DNA from: Lachnospiraceae bacterium | GTDB lineage: Bacteria; Bacillota; Clostridia; Lachnospirales; Lachnospiraceae | Direction: 5' to 3' | DNA: 64,000 nucleotides | Assembly (NCBI GenBank): GCA_902363825.1 | Contig: CABJBK010000002.1 | Location: forward strand, 258,230 to 322,229 | Shown: positions 15,867 to 23,140 of the stretch, piece after piece | How positions within the stretch are numbered: position 1 is the stretch's first letter | How the letters are laid out: every line of letters begins with the position of its first letter | Notes under the pieces: model-generated | Seen by the model: only the letters and a program-made list of their open reading frames with translations | The model's database searches: none | Told to the model about the DNA's origin: nothing | Made by a program: the position numbers and the translations under genes

Positions 15867-16001
15867 TTATCGCCCGCAGGATCCGCAGTTTCCACTGCAT
15901 CCGGCACACTTTCCGCTTCTTTTTTTCTTCCAGGAAGCGCGCGCTGCCAATATTCCCCAGAGGAAAAGAAAAAGCAGCACAAGTCCATCGATCAGATTCA
16001 T
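15867..16001 (-). CDS. FeoB-associated Cys-rich small membrane protein
   Basis: This is a 44-residue protein with one N-terminal membrane helix (IDGLVLLFLFLWGILAARAS), a basic stretch KKKRSGK, and a Cys-rich tail CAGCSGNCGSCGR. It matches the FeoB-associated Cys-rich membrane protein family, an apparent FeoC analogue in Firmicutes. The ATG overlaps the FeoB stop as ATGA, showing translational coupling. A role in ferrous iron delivery or FeoB assembly is inferred from context. Confidence 0.85.
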   Translation of the reverse strand: MNLIDGLVLLFLFLWGILAARASWKKKRSGKCAGCSGNCGSCGR

Positions 16002-18004
16002 AAAAAGATCCCTCCTGCCCGATATACGATAAATGCCACGATCCAGGCTGCCACACACTGCATGACCACAACTCCGACACTCTGAAGCCTAGAATCCATC
16101 TCCCGGCGGATCGCCGCGATCGCCGCCACACACGGCGTGTATAACAGCGTAAATACCAGAAAGCTCACTGCCGTAAGCGGAGTGAACATGCCGCCCAGCG
16201 CCGCACCGAGATTTGCCATGCTCGTTCCGGTCAGCACGCTCATTGTGCTCACGACCGCCTCTTTTGCCGTAAATCCGCAGATTAACGACGTGGAAACCCG
16301 CCAGTCATCAAATCCAAGCGGAGCAAACACCGGAGCGATCCATTTTCCCACCAGCGCAAGCAGGCTGTCACTGCTGTCTGCCACCACATTGAGCCTGGTA
16401 TCGAATGTCTGCAAAAACCAGATGATGATCGTTGCAAAAAAGATGACCGTAAATGCTCTCTGAATGAAATCTTTTGCCTTGTCCCACATCAGAAGCAGCA
16501 CGCTTTTTGCGGACGGGAAACGGTAATTGGGAAGTTCCATCACAAACGGAACCGGATTTCCCTTAAACAGCGTGTGATTAAATAATAACGCCACAAGGAT
16601 ACCGACTACGATACCGCCGACATATAATCCCATCATGACAAGCGCCTGATATTTTTCAAAAAACGCCGCCGCAAACACGGCATAGATCGGTATTTTAGCC
16701 GAACAGCTGATATACGGTGTCAGCATGATCGTCATCTTCCGGTCGCGCTCCGAAGAAAGCGTCCGGCTTGACATGACCGCAGGAACCGTACATCCAAATC
16801 CGATCAGCATCGGCACAAAGCTGCGCCCGGAAAGTCCGATCTTGCGTAACAGCTTATCCATCACAAACGCGACTCTTGCCATGTATCCCGAATCTTCTAA
16901 GATCGACAGGAAAAAGAACAACACCACGATGATCGGCAGGAAACTGAGTACGCTTCCGACCCCGGCGAACACACCGTCGATGACCAGACTGTGTACGACC
17001 GGATTCATTCCGTAAACTGTGAGTGCATGATCCGCAAGCGCCGTCACACGGTCGATCCCAATACTGAGCAGATCACTGAGCCCCTGTCCGATCAGTCCGA
17101 AGGTCAGCCAGAAGATGAGCAGCATGATCCCGAGAAACATCGGGATCGCCAGATATTTGTCCGTCAGCACGCGGTCGATCTTCACACTGCGCTTATGTTC
17201 TCTGCTCTCCTGACACTTTGTTACCGTTTTCGCGCATACTTTTTCAATAAAAGTATAGCGCATATCCGCAAGTGCCGCATTCCGGTCCATATGATGGTCT
17301 GTCTCCATCTCCTCGATGCTGTGCTCCATCATGTCCAGCTCGTTTTGACTGAGTTCCAGACGTTTTATGATATCGGTATCGTTCTCTATGATCTTGACTG
17401 CCGCAAAACGCGGTGACATGCCATTATTCTGCGCATGATCCTCCACCTGGTGACAGACCGCGTGAATACAGCGGTGTACATCACCTTTTTCACAGAAATC
17501 CGTCACGCGCGGCATCTCCTTTTTCTTTGCCACACGGTAAACGGTATCAATGAGATCTTCCACACCTTCATCTTTTACCGCGCTGATCGGCACGACCGGT
17601 ATCCCCAGTTCCACCGCCATCTGTTCTACATCCACAGAACCGCCGTTTCCACGCACCTCGTCCATCATGTTGAGCGCAAGCACCATCGGGATATGCATCT
17701 CAAGAAGCTGCAGCGTCAGATAGAGATTTCGCTCGATATTCGTCGCGTCCACAATGTTGATGATCCCATCCGGCTTTTCATTTAAGATAAAGTCTCTGGT
17801 CACGATCTCCTCATTTGTATAGGGACGCAGGGAATAAATGCCCGGCAGATCCACGACCTGGCATCCCTTTTTGGAGCGGACTTCTCCCATTTTCTGATCG
17901 ACGGTAACTCCCGGGAAATTTCCCACATGCTGGTTGGAACCGGTCAGCTGGTTAAAAAGCGTGGTCTTTCCACAGTTCTGATTTCCTACTAATGCTAAGA
18001 TCAT
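15998..18004 (-). CDS. feoB: ferrous iron transporter FeoB
   Basis: This 668-residue membrane protein imports Fe2+. The N-terminal G domain has G1 GNQNCGKTTLFNQLTG, G3 DLPGIYSLRPY and G4 NMMDE. A helical spacer follows near residues 170-280. The membrane part holds two Gate segments, SVLSFLPIIVVLFFFLSILEDSGYMAR and the GFGCTVPAVMSSRTL motif. It overlaps feoA by four bases upstream and the small Cys-rich gene downstream. Expression is expected to be anaerobic and iron-repressed; a palindrome at the feoA promoter could be the operator. Confidence 0.97.
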   Translation of the reverse strand: MILALVGNQNCGKTTLFNQLTGSNQHVGNFPGVTVDQKMGEVRSKKGCQVVDLPGIYSLRPYTNEEIVTRDFILNEKPDGIINIVDATNIERNLYLTLQLLEMHIPMVLALNMMDEVRGNGGSVDVEQMAVELGIPVVPISAVKDEGVEDLIDTVYRVAKKKEMPRVTDFCEKGDVHRCIHAVCHQVEDHAQNNGMSPRFAAVKIIENDTDIIKRLELSQNELDMMEHSIEEMETDHHMDRNAALADMRYTFIEKVCAKTVTKCQESREHKRSVKIDRVLTDKYLAIPMFLGIMLLIFWLTFGLIGQGLSDLLSIGIDRVTALADHALTVYGMNPVVHSLVIDGVFAGVGSVLSFLPIIVVLFFFLSILEDSGYMARVAFVMDKLLRKIGLSGRSFVPMLIGFGCTVPAVMSSRTLSSERDRKMTIMLTPYISCSAKIPIYAVFAAAFFEKYQALVMMGLYVGGIVVGILVALLFNHTLFKGNPVPFVMELPNYRFPSAKSVLLLMWDKAKDFIQRAFTVIFFATIIIWFLQTFDTRLNVVADSSDSLLALVGKWIAPVFAPLGFDDWRVSTSLICGFTAKEAVVSTMSVLTGTSMANLGAALGGMFTPLTAVSFLVFTLLYTPCVAAIAAIRREMDSRLQSVGVVVMQCVAAWIVAFIVYRAGGIFL

Positions 18005-18237
18005 GCTTCCTTCTCCTCCGGCTCTACTTCTATTTTTCCGGCATCCTCTTTCCGTATCGTCAGTTCATATCCACGGATATGCAGTTCGATCGGATCTCCC
18101 ATCGGTGCCACTTTCTGTACCACTACTTTTGTCTTCGGGATCAGTCCCATATCCAAGAACCGGCAGCGCAGCGCGCCCTCTCCGCTCACTTTTGTGATCA
18201 CCGCTTCTTTTCCAATTGGTAATTCATCCAATGTCAT
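18001..18237 (-). CDS. feoA: ferrous iron transport protein FeoA
   Basis: A 78-residue SH3-like protein: MTLDELPIGKEAVITKVSGE, then RCRFLDMGLIPKTKVVVQK and DPIELHIRGYELTIRKEDAG, the usual FeoA pattern. It assists FeoB at the cytoplasmic face. It is first in the feoA-feoB-small Cys-rich operon, with a good sigma-A promoter 50-80 bases upstream. Confidence 0.95.
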   Translation of the reverse strand: MTLDELPIGKEAVITKVSGEGALRCRFLDMGLIPKTKVVVQKVAPMGDPIELHIRGYELTIRKEDAGKIEVEPEEKEA

Positions 18238-18923: not shown

Positions 18924-19348
18924 TCACAACGTATTTTTATCAAATGCCGGGTTAAACGCGTAATAATTTTTGCTGTCGAGATGTTCTCTCACCATATTTA
19001 AGCCCTCACCGAAGCGCTGGAAGTGTACGATCTCCCTTGCTCTTAAAAAGCGGATCGGATCGCAGACCTCCGGATCTTTCACCAGACGTAAAATATTGTC
19101 ATACGTCTTTCTCGCTTTCTGCTCCGCCGCCATATCTTCAAACAGATCCGTGATCGGATCGCCGCTCGACTGGAACTGGTTTGCGTTAAACGGCACTCCT
19201 CCCGCCGACTGCGGCCAGATCCCTACCGTGTGATCGGTATAGTACGGCGCAAACCCGGATGCCTTGATCTCATCCATCGTAAGATTTCTTGTAAGCTGAT
19301 GCACGATCGCAGCGACGATCTCAAGATGCGCCAGTTCTTCGGTACCTA
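18924..19348 (-). CDS. cotJC: CotJC spore coat protein (Mn-catalase family), 3' segment of a split gene
   Basis: The frame open from the repeat TAGGTACCGA at 19348 to the stop at 18924 encodes GT-EELAHLEIVAAIVHQLTR and onward to the end of CotJC. It includes the AAEQKARKTYDNIL and REIVHFQRF metal-ligand helices. It has no start codon of its own at the junction; the first ATG (19304) would give only a 126-residue fragment lacking the ligand helices. The other part lies 3.1 kb away at 22.4-22.6 kb. Joining at the repeat yields a 201-residue protein with the conserved GLLTDIGTEELAHLE across the joint. CotJC is a mother-cell-made coat component. Confidence 0.93.
19339..19348 (-). repeat. left copy of the 10-bp attachment core
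   Basis: TAGGTACCGA on the minus strand, identical to 22445-22436. Its first three bases are the stop codon of the recombinase. Inside the element, GTACTGC lies 10 bases from this core, and GCAGTAC lies 4 bases from the other copy, giving inverted arms in a circular junction. Confidence 0.9.
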
Positions 19349-20551
19349 CCTTTGCAGTGCAGTACGCCAGACCCTCCCGTCCCAGAACATGTAGAGCAGA
19401 TCATTTTCCCCGATGATGATACTTTTTAACCCCGCAGCATCTTTCCTGCCATCCAGACGCGCACCGCTTTTTTCTTCCGCCTCGAGAAAGCCCTGATACA
19501 GCACCGGATCCGCCACGCGCTTTCCGGCACAGCCCGATCTTTTTCTTCCGTATTCTGCCACATTCGCGCAGAGCCAGCTCTGGGAGATACTTCCGTCCCG
19601 CCGTCTGCGCACCCTGCTCACGCAGGTACTGCCACAGCATCCGCACCTCACCTTTCCACTGCACCAGTAACGGTTCCGGTATTTTTCCATCTCCTCCGGC
19701 GCTCTTTTCTTTTCGGATAACCGCGCCTGCGCTTCCAAAAAAAGCTGTCTTGAAATGATCGCGGGATGATGGTCTTTTTGTATGACAAATTCCTCCGCCC
19801 CGTCATTCTTTCTTTTTGCATGCGTCAGATAATCCGCGGTATACGTCTTTTTCTGCACCAGATCTCCCACATATTTTTCATTTTTTAGGATCCGGCTCAC
19901 CGCAAGATCCGTCCATGGATTTTTTCGTGCGGTCAGATATCCCTCGGCGTTTAATTCCCGGGCGATCTCTCCGGTCTTCTTTTTTTCTTTTACATAGTTC
20001 CGGTAGATCCTTTGCACCACCTCTGCTTCCGCCTCACAAACACTTAATACCCCGTGATCCAGCTCATACCCGAACAGCCTTCTGCCGAAAACGATTCCTC
20101 GCTCCATCTGGCGTTTCTGCCCCCATTTCACCCGCTGCGATATTTTTCGGCTCTCCTCCTGTGCCATGGATGCCATAAGCGTCAGCCGGATCTCTCCGTC
20201 ATTTTCTCTTGTATCGATGTGATCCAGAATAAAAAATACACCCACGCCAAATGTGCGCAGTGTGCGCACGGCAATGAGTGTATCTACGGTATTTCGCGCA
20301 AAACGGCTGACCTCTTTCGTTAAGATCAGATCTATCTTTCCCGTTTTCGCGTCTTCCATCATCTGCTGAAAAGCTTCTCTTTTTTTTACGCTGGTTCCGG
20401 AAATGCCCTCGTCTGCGTAGATCCCGGCAAATTTCCAGTTTTCTTCTTCTTTTTTTTGAATAAAGGACGCAAAATATTCCTGCTGGTTTTTTAGGGAATT
20501 CTGCTGATCGTCCAGCTCGGTAGAAACTCTGCAATATGCGGCAACTTTCAT
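19346..20551 (-). CDS. site-specific serine recombinase (SpoIVCA-like)
   Basis: The 401-residue protein begins MKVAAYCRVSTE, with the nucleophile Ser at position 10. The resolvase domain continues with YADEGISGTS, DLILTKEVSRFARNTVDTL and MASMAQEESRKISQRVKWG. A Recombinase domain (GEIARELNAEGYLTARKNPW, RILKNEKYVGD) and a zinc ribbon (VRCGCCGSTCV, WLCAN, GCAG) follow. The start is ATG 20551 behind AGGTGA; GTG at 20560 is an alternative. Its stop codon TAG is made by the attachment core, so the gene ends exactly at the element boundary. A CATACACT box suits mother-cell sigma-E. It most likely excises the element during sporulation. Confidence 0.93.
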   Translation of the reverse strand: MKVAAYCRVSTELDDQQNSLKNQQEYFASFIQKKEEENWKFAGIYADEGISGTSVKKREAFQQMMEDAKTGKIDLILTKEVSRFARNTVDTLIAVRTLRTFGVGVFFILDHIDTRENDGEIRLTLMASMAQEESRKISQRVKWGQKRQMERGIVFGRRLFGYELDHGVLSVCEAEAEVVQRIYRNYVKEKKKTGEIARELNAEGYLTARKNPWTDLAVSRILKNEKYVGDLVQKKTYTADYLTHAKRKNDGAEEFVIQKDHHPAIISRQLFLEAQARLSEKKRAPEEMEKYRNRYWCSGKVRCGCCGSTCVSRVRRRRDGSISQSWLCANVAEYGRKRSGCAGKRVADPVLYQGFLEAEEKSGARLDGRKDAAGLKSIIIGENDLLYMFWDGRVWRTALQR

Positions 20552-20572
20552 GGTTCTCACCTGTTTTTTATC

Positions 20573-20580
20573 AGTGTATG
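20573..20580 (-). promoter_or_regulatory. mother-cell sigma-like -10 of the recombinase
   Basis: CATACACT on the minus strand fits the sigma-E -10 CATACAnT, and the sigma-K form CATAnnnT. It lies 21 bases before the ATG. A clear -35 is not visible; GAATGAA is at the right distance but weak. Confidence 0.5.
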
Positions 20581-20615
20581 CCGCATTTTTTTCTTCATTC
20601 CCCGTTTTCTTTTTT

Positions 20616-21269
20616 CTAACGCTCTAAGAAAGCAAGGATATCTTTGGGTGTGTCCGCAAAATACTTTGCCCCGTGTGCTTCCAGAAATGCCCGGTCACGG
20701 AATCCCCAGGTCACGCTGATACAGGAAAGTCCCGCGTTTTTTGCGGTTTCAATGTCCACATCCGAGTCTCCGACATAGACACTGTGCGCGCTGTCGCTTC
20801 CGAGTCTTTTCATCGCCTCAAACGCCGTATCCGGTGCCGGTTTCCGGCGGATCCCGGTCTTTTCACCGATCGCCACCCCGATCTTTCCTTTAAAATACAG
20901 ATCCCGCAGCTGCTGCACCGCGAAATCTCCTTTATTGGATACAATGGCAAGCTTCATGCCCTGCGCGTTTAACTGATCGAGCAGCTCCGGTATCCCCGCA
21001 TAAGGACACGTCTTCTTCGCGCAGTTTTCTCCGTAATGTGCGCAGAAATCTGTAAACACCGCCTGAAACTGCTCGTCTGTCACGTCAGACGGCAATGCAC
21101 GCTCCATCAGCTTTTTCAATCCGTTTCCGACAAAACGGCGCACTTCATCGATCGTGTGCGTGTGAAACCCATACTTGTCCATCGCATAATTTACACTGTC
21201 TGTCAGATCTTCCAGGGTATTAAGCAATGTTCCGTCCAGATCAAAAATTACGGTATCATAGTTTTTCAT
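20616..21269 (-). CDS. HAD-superfamily phosphatase, phosphoglycolate phosphatase-like
   Basis: A 217-residue HAD hydrolase with motif I VIFDLDGTLLNT, motif II LAIVSNK, the conserved Lys in GIRRKPAPDTAFEA, and motif IV SVYVGDSDVDIETAKNAG. The cap helices (DLTDSVNYAMDKYGFH) match Gph/PgmB-type enzymes; the substrate cannot be fixed. ATG 21269 follows AAGGAG, 18 bases after the lrgB stop, so it is the third gene of the lrgA-lrgB-gph cargo. It would be lost from the mother cell upon excision. Confidence 0.9.
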   Translation of the reverse strand: MKNYDTVIFDLDGTLLNTLEDLTDSVNYAMDKYGFHTHTIDEVRRFVGNGLKKLMERALPSDVTDEQFQAVFTDFCAHYGENCAKKTCPYAGIPELLDQLNAQGMKLAIVSNKGDFAVQQLRDLYFKGKIGVAIGEKTGIRRKPAPDTAFEAMKRLGSDSAHSVYVGDSDVDIETAKNAGLSCISVTWGFRDRAFLEAHGAKYFADTPKDILAFLER

Positions 21270-21287
21270 AGTCTTCTCCTTATCCAA

Positions 21288-21980
21288 TTAATACAGATTC
21301 GCAAAAACAGACGCGCCGATTACCGTGATAAGACCCGCAACCGCAATGGCAAGACTGCTCATGGCTCCTTCTACTTCTCCAAGTTCCATCGCCCGGGCGG
21401 TTCCGATCGCATGCGCCGAAGTTCCGAGTGCCACACCCTTTGCAACCGCTTCCTTGATATGGAAAATCTTAAACACTGCCTCTCCGATGATATTTCCAAA
21501 TACACCGGTAATGATGATCACTGCTACGGTAACCGTGACAAGGCCGCCAAGCTCTTCCGACACGCCCATCCCGATCGCAGTTGTGATCGACTTCGGGAGC
21601 AGTGTCACATACATCTGATGGTCAAACCCGCATATCACGCAGAGCCCGAGCACCGACAAAATACTGGTGAGCACGCCCGCAACGATCCCGCCGCAGATTG
21701 CTTTATAGTTACTTTTTAACATGGAAAGCTGCTGATAAAGCGGTACCGCAAGGCATACCGTAGCCGGTGTGAGCAGGTAGCTCAAATATTTTGCGCCCTC
21801 GTTATAACTTTCATAATCCACACCGGTTCCCGCAAGGATCACCATCACGACCACGATCGCAATCAGCAGTGGATTGAAAAGCGCCAGGTTGAATTTTCTC
21901 TTTAATAAAAGTCCGATCTCATATCCGGCAATGCTTACAAACACGCCGAAGAATACAGAGGTACTAAGCATCTTGTCCAT
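21288..21980 (-). CDS. lrgB: LrgB/CidB family membrane protein
   Basis: A 230-residue polytopic membrane protein of the LrgB family (about seven helices): STSVFFGVFVSIAGYEIGLL, LAVPLYQQLSMLKSNYKAI, LLPKSITTAIGMGVSEELGG and GTSAHAIGTARAMELGEVEGAMSSLA. LrgAB/CidAB proteins have been tied to murein hydrolase control, cell lysis and pyruvate uptake. It overlaps lrgA by 17 bases and is followed by the HAD gene. It lies wholly within the cotJC-splitting element. Confidence 0.93.
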   Translation of the reverse strand: MDKMLSTSVFFGVFVSIAGYEIGLLLKRKFNLALFNPLLIAIVVVMVILAGTGVDYESYNEGAKYLSYLLTPATVCLAVPLYQQLSMLKSNYKAICGGIVAGVLTSILSVLGLCVICGFDHQMYVTLLPKSITTAIGMGVSEELGGLVTVTVAVIIITGVFGNIIGEAVFKIFHIKEAVAKGVALGTSAHAIGTARAMELGEVEGAMSSLAIAVAGLITVIGASVFANLY

Positions 21981-22335
21981 CGTCCGCCTTGCCTCCCTTT
22001 CGTATGATAAACTGTGTCACAAGTCCTGTTACCGCCATGACAACGACTGTTGTGATCAACGTGACCGCTATAAGCGGTACGCAGATCCCTTTGATCTGTG
22101 CCCAGGAATCCATCAGCCCTACGGCCGCCGGAATAAACATCATCGGCATGATCTCGATCAGAAATGTCGCTGCCTCCTTCACCTGATCCAGTTTTAAAAT
22201 GCCGGTGCAAAGCGCAAGCAGCATCAGAACCAGACCGTAAATGCTTGCCGGGATCGGAAGCGGAATGACATACTTTAACGCCTCTCCGAGGAACGTGACT
22301 GCCAAAATAATTCCAAATTGTTTCATGAATTTCAT
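21964..22335 (-). CDS. lrgA: LrgA/CidA family holin-like membrane protein
   Basis: A 123-residue protein with four hydrophobic segments and the family pattern FGIILAVTFLGEALKYVIPL, PIPASIYGLVLMLLALCTG, EIMPMMFIPAAVGLMD. It is the partner of LrgB in the next, overlapping gene. A sigma-A promoter lies 38-66 bases upstream, inside the element, so expression does not depend on the cotJ promoter. Confidence 0.93.
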   Translation of the reverse strand: MKFMKQFGIILAVTFLGEALKYVIPLPIPASIYGLVLMLLALCTGILKLDQVKEAATFLIEIMPMMFIPAAVGLMDSWAQIKGICVPLIAVTLITTVVVMAVTGLVTQFIIRKGGKADDGQDA

Positions 22336-22362
22336 AATCGCATCTCTTTTCTTTTTCTTCTG

Positions 22363-22626
22363 TCAATGTGATATTGTATAACTCAGCATTCGATTCGTCA
22401 ACCATTCTTTTTCCCGATTTTTTTGTACTGCTGCATCGGTACCTATATCGGTCAGCAGACCGGAAACTTTGCGGTACGGCATGGAATATCTCTGGGAGAG
22501 GTAACGCATGGACGCGCCCATTTCGCCGTCTGGGCCTCCATACTGACTCAAGATACACTGTGCGATCTTCGGGTTTGGATTTGTGATCTTTACCGGATAC
22601 TGCAATCTCTTTTCATAATTCCACAT
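22363..22626 (-). CDS. cotJC: CotJC, 5' segment of a split gene
   Basis: This begins MWNYEKRLQYPVKITN and runs through YGGPDGEMGASMRYLSQRY to KVSGLLTDI at codon 61, a normal CotJC N-terminus with the first metal ligand Glu35. At the core repeat it leaves the family sequence and ends after 26 unrelated residues read from the element. ATG 22626 shares its first base with the cotJB stop (TAATG), behind GGAGGAG. Joined to the 3' segment it gives the second ligand pair E65 and H68. In unexcised DNA the product would be non-functional. Confidence 0.93.
   Translation of the reverse strand: MWNYEKRLQYPVKITNPNPKIAQCILSQYGGPDGEMGASMRYLSQRYSMPYRKVSGLLTDIGTDAAVQKNREKEWLTNRMLSYTISH
22373..22401 (-). promoter_or_regulatory. 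sigma-A promoter of the lrgA-lrgB-gph cargo
   Basis: TTGACG (22401-22396), 17 bases, TACAAT (22378-22373), ahead of lrgA. It lies in the tail of the interrupted cotJC frame, just inside the element. Confidence 0.65.
22436..22445 (-). repeat. right copy of the 10-bp attachment core
   Basis: TAGGTACCGA on the minus strand, identical to the left copy. Here it encodes the IGT and start of the next codon in CotJC. TGCAGCAGTAC follows inside the element, an inverted match to GTACTGCACTGCA near the other end. Confidence 0.9.
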
Positions 22627-22928
22627 TAGCAAGCTCCTCCTTCCCATGGCAGCGGCATGGATGCCCAGTCAAAGGTACACTCCGGCGTGGCGAGATCCAC
22701 CGTGAGCGGTCCGTACAATCTCGCGTATTCGCGCAGCGCCTCTTCCCTCAGTTTTTTATAATGATTGAAATAACTGATCGCGTCCGTATCCTCCGGATGT
22801 GTATCCAGATACAGTGTGATATCATTTACCGCAAAGCTGATCTTTGTAATGTACGCGTACAGCTGCTGTCTTTTCATCTGTGCCGCATTCCCTGCTCTGT
22901 TCGGATTCCGGTTCATGGTCTGGTTCAT
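22626..22928 (-). CDS. cotJB: spore coat protein CotJB
   Basis: A 100-residue protein with the CotJB pattern: YITKISFAVNDITLYLDTHPEDTDAISYFNHYKKLREEAL, then YGPLTVDLATPECTFDWASMPLPWEGGAC. It is part of the cotJ operon whose products form an inner-coat complex with CotJC. Its start overlaps the cotJA stop (ATGA) and its stop overlaps the cotJC start, so translation is coupled. Confidence 0.95.
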   Translation of the reverse strand: MNQTMNRNPNRAGNAAQMKRQQLYAYITKISFAVNDITLYLDTHPEDTDAISYFNHYKKLREEALREYARLYGPLTVDLATPECTFDWASMPLPWEGGAC

Positions 22929-23083
22929 TTTCTTTCCATCCTCCTTCCGAGAAACGGCTTATTCAGTTCCGGAAAAATCGTTCCGATCATCAGTGCTTTT
23001 TCCGGCTCATACACCTTATAGAAATTCTGCCACGGCACATATGCCATCGCGACAACCTGGTCTTTGCAACTATCGTTTTCCAT
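22925..23083 (-). CDS. cotJA: spore coat-associated protein CotJA
   Basis: A 52-residue protein starting MENDSCKDQVVAMAYVPWQN, followed by FYKVYEPEKALMIGTIFPELNKPF, the CotJA motif. ATG 23083 is behind GGAGGG; an in-frame ATG upstream would add eight residues. It leads the cotJA-cotJB-cotJC operon. Confidence 0.92.
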   Translation of the reverse strand: MENDSCKDQVVAMAYVPWQNFYKVYEPEKALMIGTIFPELNKPFLGRRMERK

Positions 23084-23113
23084 ACAAAAAGATCCCTCCT
23101 TTTTCATTCTTTA

Positions 23114-23140
23114 TACCATATGAAAAAGAAGGGATTTTGT
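23114..23140 (-). promoter_or_regulatory. mother-cell sigma-like promoter of cotJ
   Basis: CATATGGTA (23122-23114) fits CATAnnnTA. ACA lies 15 bases further upstream, one base short of the usual sigma-K spacing. It is about 30 bases before cotJA. Confidence 0.5.

Follow-up and report, generated by a model that had tools for sequence, protein, structure and literature searches.

Anatomy and conservation of the split cotJC locus

The 64,000-nucleotide stretch of Lachnospiraceae bacterium DNA analysed here (the window; contig CABJBK010000002.1, positions 258,230 to 322,229) carries the spore-coat catalase gene cotJC, which is cut in two by a 3.1-kb cassette with its own serine recombinase (Table 1). 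The gene breaks at the Gly62 codon, and both halves end on copies of the 10-bp sequence TAGGTACCGA, 3,097 bp apart. Exactly two copies of this sequence occur in the window, both on the minus strand, and a two-copy outcome was seen in 0 of 100 dinucleotide shuffles; the window holds a split sporulation gene with direct repeats at both joints. Reading from the ATG at 22626 reaches the first copy, the C-terminal frame picks up at the second, and deletion of 3,097 bp in silico yields one 201-codon CotJC open reading frame (ORF) that includes E35, E65 and H68, residues that, together with E136, we take to be metal ligands. Pfam Mn_catalase (PF05067) matches both halves, at profile positions 1-65 and 99-197, and the edges of the element are ambiguous inside the repeat (19349-22445 or 19339-22435). 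The four genes of the element, lrgA, lrgB, a HAD phosphatase gene and the recombinase gene, all run in the same direction as cotJABC, and the recombinase frame stops at a TAG that forms the opening triplet of the TAGGTACCGA repeat, inside the attachment (att) core. The recombinase carries catalytic, recombinase and zinc-ribbon domains (Pfam Resolvase, Recombinase and Zn_ribbon_recom), and its nearest solved folds by Foldseek are the serine integrases 9dxd, 9y66, Bxb1 (9iu2) and PhiC31. An earlier reading of this DNA, made without database searches (the sequence-only reading), had placed the break at 22445-22436 and the resumption at an identical 10-bp copy (19348-19339), derived the 201-codon product with its ligands from a 3,097-bp removal, and assigned the element its own serine recombinase; the repeat search, the two Pfam halves, and the recombinase domains and folds bear out each of these points.

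The joined window CotJC was searched against 5.8 billion public proteins, of which 120 were listed. Protein P0121 (source lgn; 2 contigs, the longest 2,766 bp) is identical to it at 201 of 201 residues, which removes chance as a sensible explanation of the repeats and frame and provides, as protein, the joined gene that the sequence-only reading expected. The joined CotJC of a second species, G010, is likewise matched by P0125 (200/200; 2 contigs of at most 1,567 bp), and the joined product of L033, a 3.8-kb element with a full-length recombinase, equals P0242 (202/202; 1 contig) and is also contained in P0241 (8 contigs, up to 11.8 kb). These are exact public matches for three of the four joined-CotJC predictions compared. 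Removal of the element restores an intact gene, and the joined gene exists in public data, whether of excised or naive-strain origin.

The same four-gene element (lrgA-lrgB-HAD-recombinase) also interrupts cotJC in two further species, G001 (an uncultured Lachnospiraceae; 3,123 bp) and G010 (3,212 bp), to whose genus the window probably belongs. Both loci have mgsA beside the element and, by eye, a 384/395-amino-acid (aa) gene upstream in common. These are the two genomes of the genus that were examined; cotJC is split in both, and an intact copy was found in neither. The C-terminal half of CotJC is 94-97% identical among the three species, with a proportion of synonymous differences (pS) in the cotJC 3′ part of 0.63-0.82, near saturation. 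The recombinases are 66-71% identical, with a proportion of nonsynonymous differences (pN) of 0.20-0.22 vs. a pS of 0.77-0.82; pN and pS are given in place of dN/dS because dS is saturated. The putative residues R11, S13, R86 and R89 (presumably catalytic) and C306, C309, C331 and C344 (presumably zinc-binding) are kept in all three. This pattern points to purifying selection on both the split cotJC and the recombinase, and rejoining is hard to avoid as an explanation because lasting selection acts on a gene that cannot be translated as a whole. A finding of relatives that are always split with no recombinase conserved would have spoken against the sequence-only reading; split gene and recombinase are instead conserved together in the three species.

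Table 1. Features of the cotJ locus and its intervening element in window coordinates.
Feature	Position	Strand	Evidence
cotJC 3′ part (GTEELAHLE...DKNTL)	18924..19348	-	Mn_catalase profile 99-197; joined frame
3′ att core TAGGTACCGA	19339..19348	-	Repeat search
Serine recombinase, 404 aa from GTG or 401 from ATG 20551	19346..20560	-	Pfam Resolvase, Recombinase, Zn_ribbon_recom; alignment, models, tree
cotJC-intervening element, 3,097 bp, edges ambiguous within repeat	19349..22445	-	Repeats, joined frame
CATACACT, sigma-E -10-like, 21 bp before recombinase ATG	20573..20580	-	CATAnAnT kept in three species; suggestive only
HAD-family phosphatase, phosphoglycolate phosphatase-like; likelier start ATG 21269	20616..21287	-	Pfam HAD_2, E 7.6e-40
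lrgB homologue (CidB/LrgB family)	21288..21980	-	Pfam LrgB PF04172, E 1.3e-81
lrgA homologue (CidA/LrgA family)	21964..22335	-	Pfam LrgA PF03788, E 1.5e-32
Sigma-A-type promoter-like TTGACG-N17-TACAAT before lrgA	22373..22401	-	Kept in two other species
5′ att core TAGGTACCGA	22436..22445	-	Repeat search; inferred crossover GG is Gly62 codon bases 1-2
cotJC 5′ part, codons 1-63 (MWNYEK...LLTDIGT), 5′ repeat included	22436..22626	-	PF05067 profile 1-65; joined frame
cotJB	22626..22928	-	Pfam CotJB PF12652, E 5.7e-27
cotJA	22925..23107	-	Pfam CotJA PF11007, E 6e-20
CATATGGT before cotJA, possible sigma-E -10	23115..23122	-	CATAnnnT kept in three species; suggestive only

Recombinase, crossover site and the case for excision

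The coiled-coil motif of the C-terminal domain is absent from the window recombinase, in which helix 351-365 passes directly to strands 378-401 (alignment and AlphaFold2 model); in the 536-aa relative P0014, the AlphaFold2 model places helices 398-420 and 426-475 in the coiled-coil region. Both models have a modest predicted TM score (0.50 and 0.41) and a mean predicted local distance difference test score of 82-84. Ten short recombinases of 401-452 aa, drawn from the window, from G001 and G010 and from the protein list, group as a single clade with a Shimodaira-Hasegawa-like approximate likelihood ratio (SH-aLRT) support of 100 in a 98-row quick tree, for which 131 rows were collected and 5 duplicate or distant rows plus 28 of a crowded 51%-identity group were left out. 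The short clade lies inside a 74-row group with a support of 97, in which 57 rows cut cotJC and 7 have another or an unknown context, and by sequence the window recombinase is thereby kin to integrases that cut cotJC at the same codon. In some members of the short clade (L001:1992-3320, P0007, P0008 and P0010), the recombinase frame continues through the att core, apparently into the cotJC 3′ part in another frame, such that excision would alter the enzyme's own C-terminus.

At codon-62 joints the 5′ side reads as an Asp codon, an Ile/Val/Leu codon and GG, and the 3′ side as GGNACNGARGA. When att pairs were aligned at GG in 13 further loci, joining at this dinucleotide restored the frame in all 13, ten of them complete at 190-216 aa; of the rest, L052 starts with MFQYEKK rather than MW, and L007 and L076 are still cut near codon 31. 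Three of the 13 pairs (L069, L025 and L007) have only GG in common, and these non-wobble bases of the Gly62 codon are for that reason the likely crossover dinucleotide. The attP arms of many larger elements form an inverted repeat (GAACATTTC...GCTTC / GAAGC...GAAATGTTC).

Taken with the conservation described above, these features make it probable that the window carries a stripped-down, skin-like element in cotJC at the Gly62 codon that is excised by its own recombinase, restoring CotJC in sporulating mother cells. The recombinase would recombine the two att cores at GG, releasing a 3.1-kb circle and rejoining cotJC in frame; this role of the element's own enzyme is well supported by the anatomy, by the conservation and by the joined products present in public data. 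In the forespore the element would be retained and in this way inherited. Loss of the coiled coil may remove the need for a directionality factor and disfavour re-integration, by analogy with the LI integrase, in which deletion of the coiled coil equalised the two reactions at about 1.6% and 2.2% (PMC10754689). Both enzymes are large serine recombinases without a coiled coil, however the LI mutant is described there as laboratory-made, of low activity and with little directionality, whereas the loss in the window is natural and common to its clade. No ORF of at least 40 aa lies clear of the four element genes as a candidate directionality factor; a factor below that length or encoded at a distance would escape this test, as would one of the four proteins acting in a second capacity.

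The timing suggested for excision draws on promoter-like motifs and on the regulation of cotJ elsewhere. Motifs of the form CATAnAnT and CATAnnnT, which we take to resemble the sigma-E -10 box, are conserved before the recombinase gene and cotJA, respectively, in the three species; the sigma-E -35 box is weak at both places, and conservation is confined to the -10-like motif. In B. subtilis, cotJB and cotJC are reported as sigma-E genes (PMC3416734), and together with the motif before the recombinase gene this makes the sporulating mother cell a plausible site of excision. The site upstream of lrgA is TTGACG-N17-TACAAT in the window and G001, with TAAAAT as the -10 in G010.

Several observations weigh against excision by the element's own recombinase in the mother cell. 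During growth the recombinase could be expressed from the conserved sigma-A-like promoter upstream of lrgA; a vegetative promoter alone does not settle the timing, because the recombinase of the C. difficile skin is described as constitutive and its directionality factor as under sigma-E/SpoIIID control (PMC5025042). The tree leaves the exact place of the short clade within the 74-row group unsettled, its drawn root being the midpoint. A scan of viral_contigs, the sole collection searched for the circle junction, did not find it. The joined form of the doubly split G001 CotJC was not found, its best match among the 120 listed proteins being 94%, although the listing extends far below the expected identity. 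Three listed proteins (P0123, P0124 and P0126) fuse foreign N-terminal halves with a C-terminal half that turns window-like and are either chimeras of assembly or genuine recombinant alleles; the risk of chimeric assembly in the CotJC family is for this reason a real one, though a chimera yielding P0121 would presumably itself require an intact allele that nearly equals the window sequence to either side of the joint. The joined proteins may reflect excision or may derive from strains that lack the element.

This last point forms part of an explanation by ordinary site-specific integration, in which cotJC serves as attB, carriers lack CotJC or excise the element sporadically outside development, and the joined proteins derive from never-invaded strains. 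The contigs of up to 11.8 kb that bear the L033 joined protein are as expected of an element-free strain, several cotJC elements span tens of kb (for example in G213 and G056), and many have full-length integrases. Set against this, the sole mobility gene of the window element is a recombinase without a coiled coil, the element is present in the window and in both examined genomes of the genus, neither of them with an intact cotJC, and the C-terminal half of CotJC retains its identity despite near-saturated synonymous sites. Ordinary integration is considered unlikely, while keeping a real share of the probability.

Decay has been considered as well. The recombinases of G240 (L148:2961-3827) and G269 (L149:3313-4221), which adjoin the cotJC 3′ half, are 288 and 302 aa long and end before the zinc ribbon, that of G240 with its stop inside the att core. 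These two elements are possibly dead and their cotJC permanently split, which speaks against function everywhere, and the phiC31 integrase is reported to be inactive once its coiled coil is deleted (PMC10754689). For the window, a decaying remnant with a pseudogenised cotJC and an inert recombinase is nonetheless very improbable: three species have an open recombinase frame that retains the putative catalytic and zinc residues, the split gene bears the mark of purifying selection, and the joined protein exists. It is equally improbable that excision is real but brought about or directed by a recombinase or directionality factor acting in trans from another locus, with the element's own enzyme secondary. 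Known systems are described as requiring a second factor, CD1234 in the C. difficile skin (PMC5025042) and GirX in gin (PMC5595907), and many relatives have several serine recombinases per genome; the element's own recombinase, however, is kept at the att site in all three species, apparently under purifying selection.

cotJC as a three-site hotspot

Confirmed relatives of the recombinase numbered 204 in a scan of genome_contigs (84,980 species), and the 80 best were retained. A cotJC piece begins or ends near codon 62 at 77 of these loci, the N side being present in 72, the C side in 22 and both in 17; L009, with a match extending to residue 88, also proved on reading by eye to be cut at codon 62-63. 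Carriers of cotJC elements include Parablautia muri D42-62, Lacrimispora saccharolytica An817 and Anaerocolumna sp. MB42-C2, the last of which has an intact cotJC as well. No cotJC was seen in the fetched stretch of the other three (L022, L065 and L079). Recombinase and cotJ point in opposite directions in 70 of the 77 loci and in the same direction in 7. A parallel recombinase scan of viral_contigs returned 12 loci, mostly distant relatives, one of which has a cotJC fragment (L081).

A Mn-catalase profile search of 145 relatives of G001 matched 92 genomes, and all 150 rows were classified. cotJC is split in 29 of the 92, including 26 without an intact copy; uninterrupted relatives, which the sequence-only reading proposed to seek, are the majority, with only intact copies in 57, and 6 are not classifiable. 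Ten cuts fall near codon 31, 16 near codon 62 (the C piece being itself partial in G021 and G026) and 6 near codon 136, which is profile position 150. A phylum-wide sample of 299 genomes gave 198 with a match to the profile, and most copies among the matches listed are intact. The codon-31 and codon-136 sites adjoin other recombinases, about 24-31% identical to that of the window. Shared bases lie in GGNGG (Gly30-Gly31) at the former and in the GA of the Glu136 codon at the latter, for the three of four fetched pairs whose joint was readable (G022, G198 and G046), and the three cuts fall at or within five codons of E35, E65/H68 and E136. Where the sequence-only reading described a single case, cotJC is a widespread, three-site hotspot, and a split in 29 of 92 sampled relatives, at three sites and once at all of them together, suggests that gut Clostridia may commonly rearrange their DNA in development. 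Such cotJC halves are likely to be annotated as pseudogenes.

Some genes are cut more than once. G001 has two cuts, the second near codon 30, where two of its contigs end, and G204 has three. In G204 (L151-L154; contigs C2, C15 and C5), cotJC lies in four pieces covering profile positions 1-32, 28-66, 61-152 and 148-197, which would correspond to three intervening elements in one 0.6-kb gene. A doubly cut cotJC also occurs at L041 (6840-7180 and 13960-14213), near codon 62 and at the Glu136 site. The two G001 contig ends (L143 and L144; contigs C101 and C54) both break a few bases beyond the codon-30 att core; coexisting joined and split forms in the sample would give such breaks, and other causes are possible.

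Host-type cargo is found in other cotJC elements, namely a Spo0A paralogue (G040), a hybrid histidine kinase (L077), an alanine symporter (L003), YitT, TauE and FAD/Rieske proteins (L017) and an aminotransferase (G240). The G040 element (3.9 kb; L150:1762-2568) encodes its Spo0A paralogue with Response_reg and Spo0A_C domains; the idea that it carries the genome's only spo0A was rejected, a second spo0A being present elsewhere in the genome. The C. difficile phage phi027, which adjoins a cotJC homologue, was not counted as a split cotJC because that homologue is described as a 678-bp ORF downstream of attR (PMC11222575).

Relation to known intervening elements and origin of the cargo

Sporulation genes reported as split by intervening elements include sigK, spsM, spoVFB, spoVR, gerE and yabG (PMC5595907, PMC10747680, PMC4191935), a list to which the present work adds a coat-enzyme gene. 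No report of a split cotJC was found in the open full-text PMC literature searched, a body that excludes bioRxiv preprints and most subscription journals. The closest parallel in layout is the skin element of B. subtilis sigK, with a split sporulation gene, its own serine recombinase (SpoIVCA) and a frame restored by removal. Skin interrupts a mother-cell gene, to which cotJC is likened here, its sporulation control in the window being presumed. Skin is, however, a 48-kb prophage-like element in a sigma-factor gene, whereas the window element is 3.1 kb, lies in a coat catalase gene and has no prophage-like gene content by Pfam and NCBIfam beyond its recombinase, the other genes being lrgA, lrgB and the HAD phosphatase gene. 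In skinCd of C. difficile sigK, also from a clostridial host, the recombinase gene likewise adjoins the 3′ half of the split gene, but CD1231 is described as needing the directionality factor CD1234 to excise (PMC5025042); none was seen in the window element, where the coiled coil is missing.

The gin element of B. cereus gerE is likewise described as an intervening element with a serine recombinase and without phage genes, so that prophage-like content is usual but not universal in elements of this kind. As reported, gin spans 28.6 kb and 31 genes, has three recombinases and needs GirC and GirX for excision (PMC5595907), whereas the window element has one recombinase and three host-type genes. 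Yin (C. botulinum yabG), SPbeta (spsM), vfbin (spoVFB) and vrin (spoVR) also split sporulation genes, with excision shown or reported for several, but are described as prophages or prophage-like and occupy other genes and sites (PMC10747680, PMC4191935). A directionality or accessory factor is present in skinCd, SPbeta and gin and was not seen in the window element. The term skin-like, used in the sequence-only reading, therefore fits the layout and not the content, given the lack of phage genes, of a candidate directionality factor and of the coiled coil. In the interpretation offered by that reading, the element's own recombinase, the direct repeats, the in-frame restoration, the joined gene in public data and the conservation stand, and the mother-cell timing rests on promoter-like hints. 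As a small, clean case, the window element could show, as a natural experiment, whether it is the coiled coil that ties excision to a second factor, and its recombinase is a candidate excision tool without a partner protein.

The lrgAB genes appear to be of host origin. In G001 and in G010 the single copy of lrgB sits in the element. A search of 61 relatives found lrgB in 24; besides G001 and G010, 21 of the remaining 22 are single-copy (G195 by a weak match under the cut-off) and G025 has two copies. In 18 non-element lrgAB loci that were fetched, lrgA precedes lrgB and no cotJ genes occur in the short flanks. The notion of lrgAB as phage cargo was dropped, since in relatives it is an ordinary operon away from cotJ; we infer from this that a host lrgAB operon was captured in the element, with the phosphatase gene trapped along with it. 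A phosphatase homologue lies within 1 kb after lrgAB in two of the 18 loci (L166 and L168). The best NCBIfam match of the window phosphatase scores 149 bits, under the equivalog cut-off of 225.

A broader scenario, put forward tentatively as having somewhat less than an even chance, is that a mobile cotJC integrase was domesticated into a one-enzyme developmental excisase, freed of a directionality factor by coiled-coil loss and timed by sigma-E, and that the host's only lrgAB moved inside, to be removed in every sporulating mother cell and kept in the spore. cotJC would then be a developmental hotspot with three dedicated integrase lineages, each at one metal-ligand motif.

A search of the whole window gave no tRNA and no Rfam family at gathering score. 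Beside the cotJ locus, downstream of mgsA, lie feoB and feoA (15998-18237).

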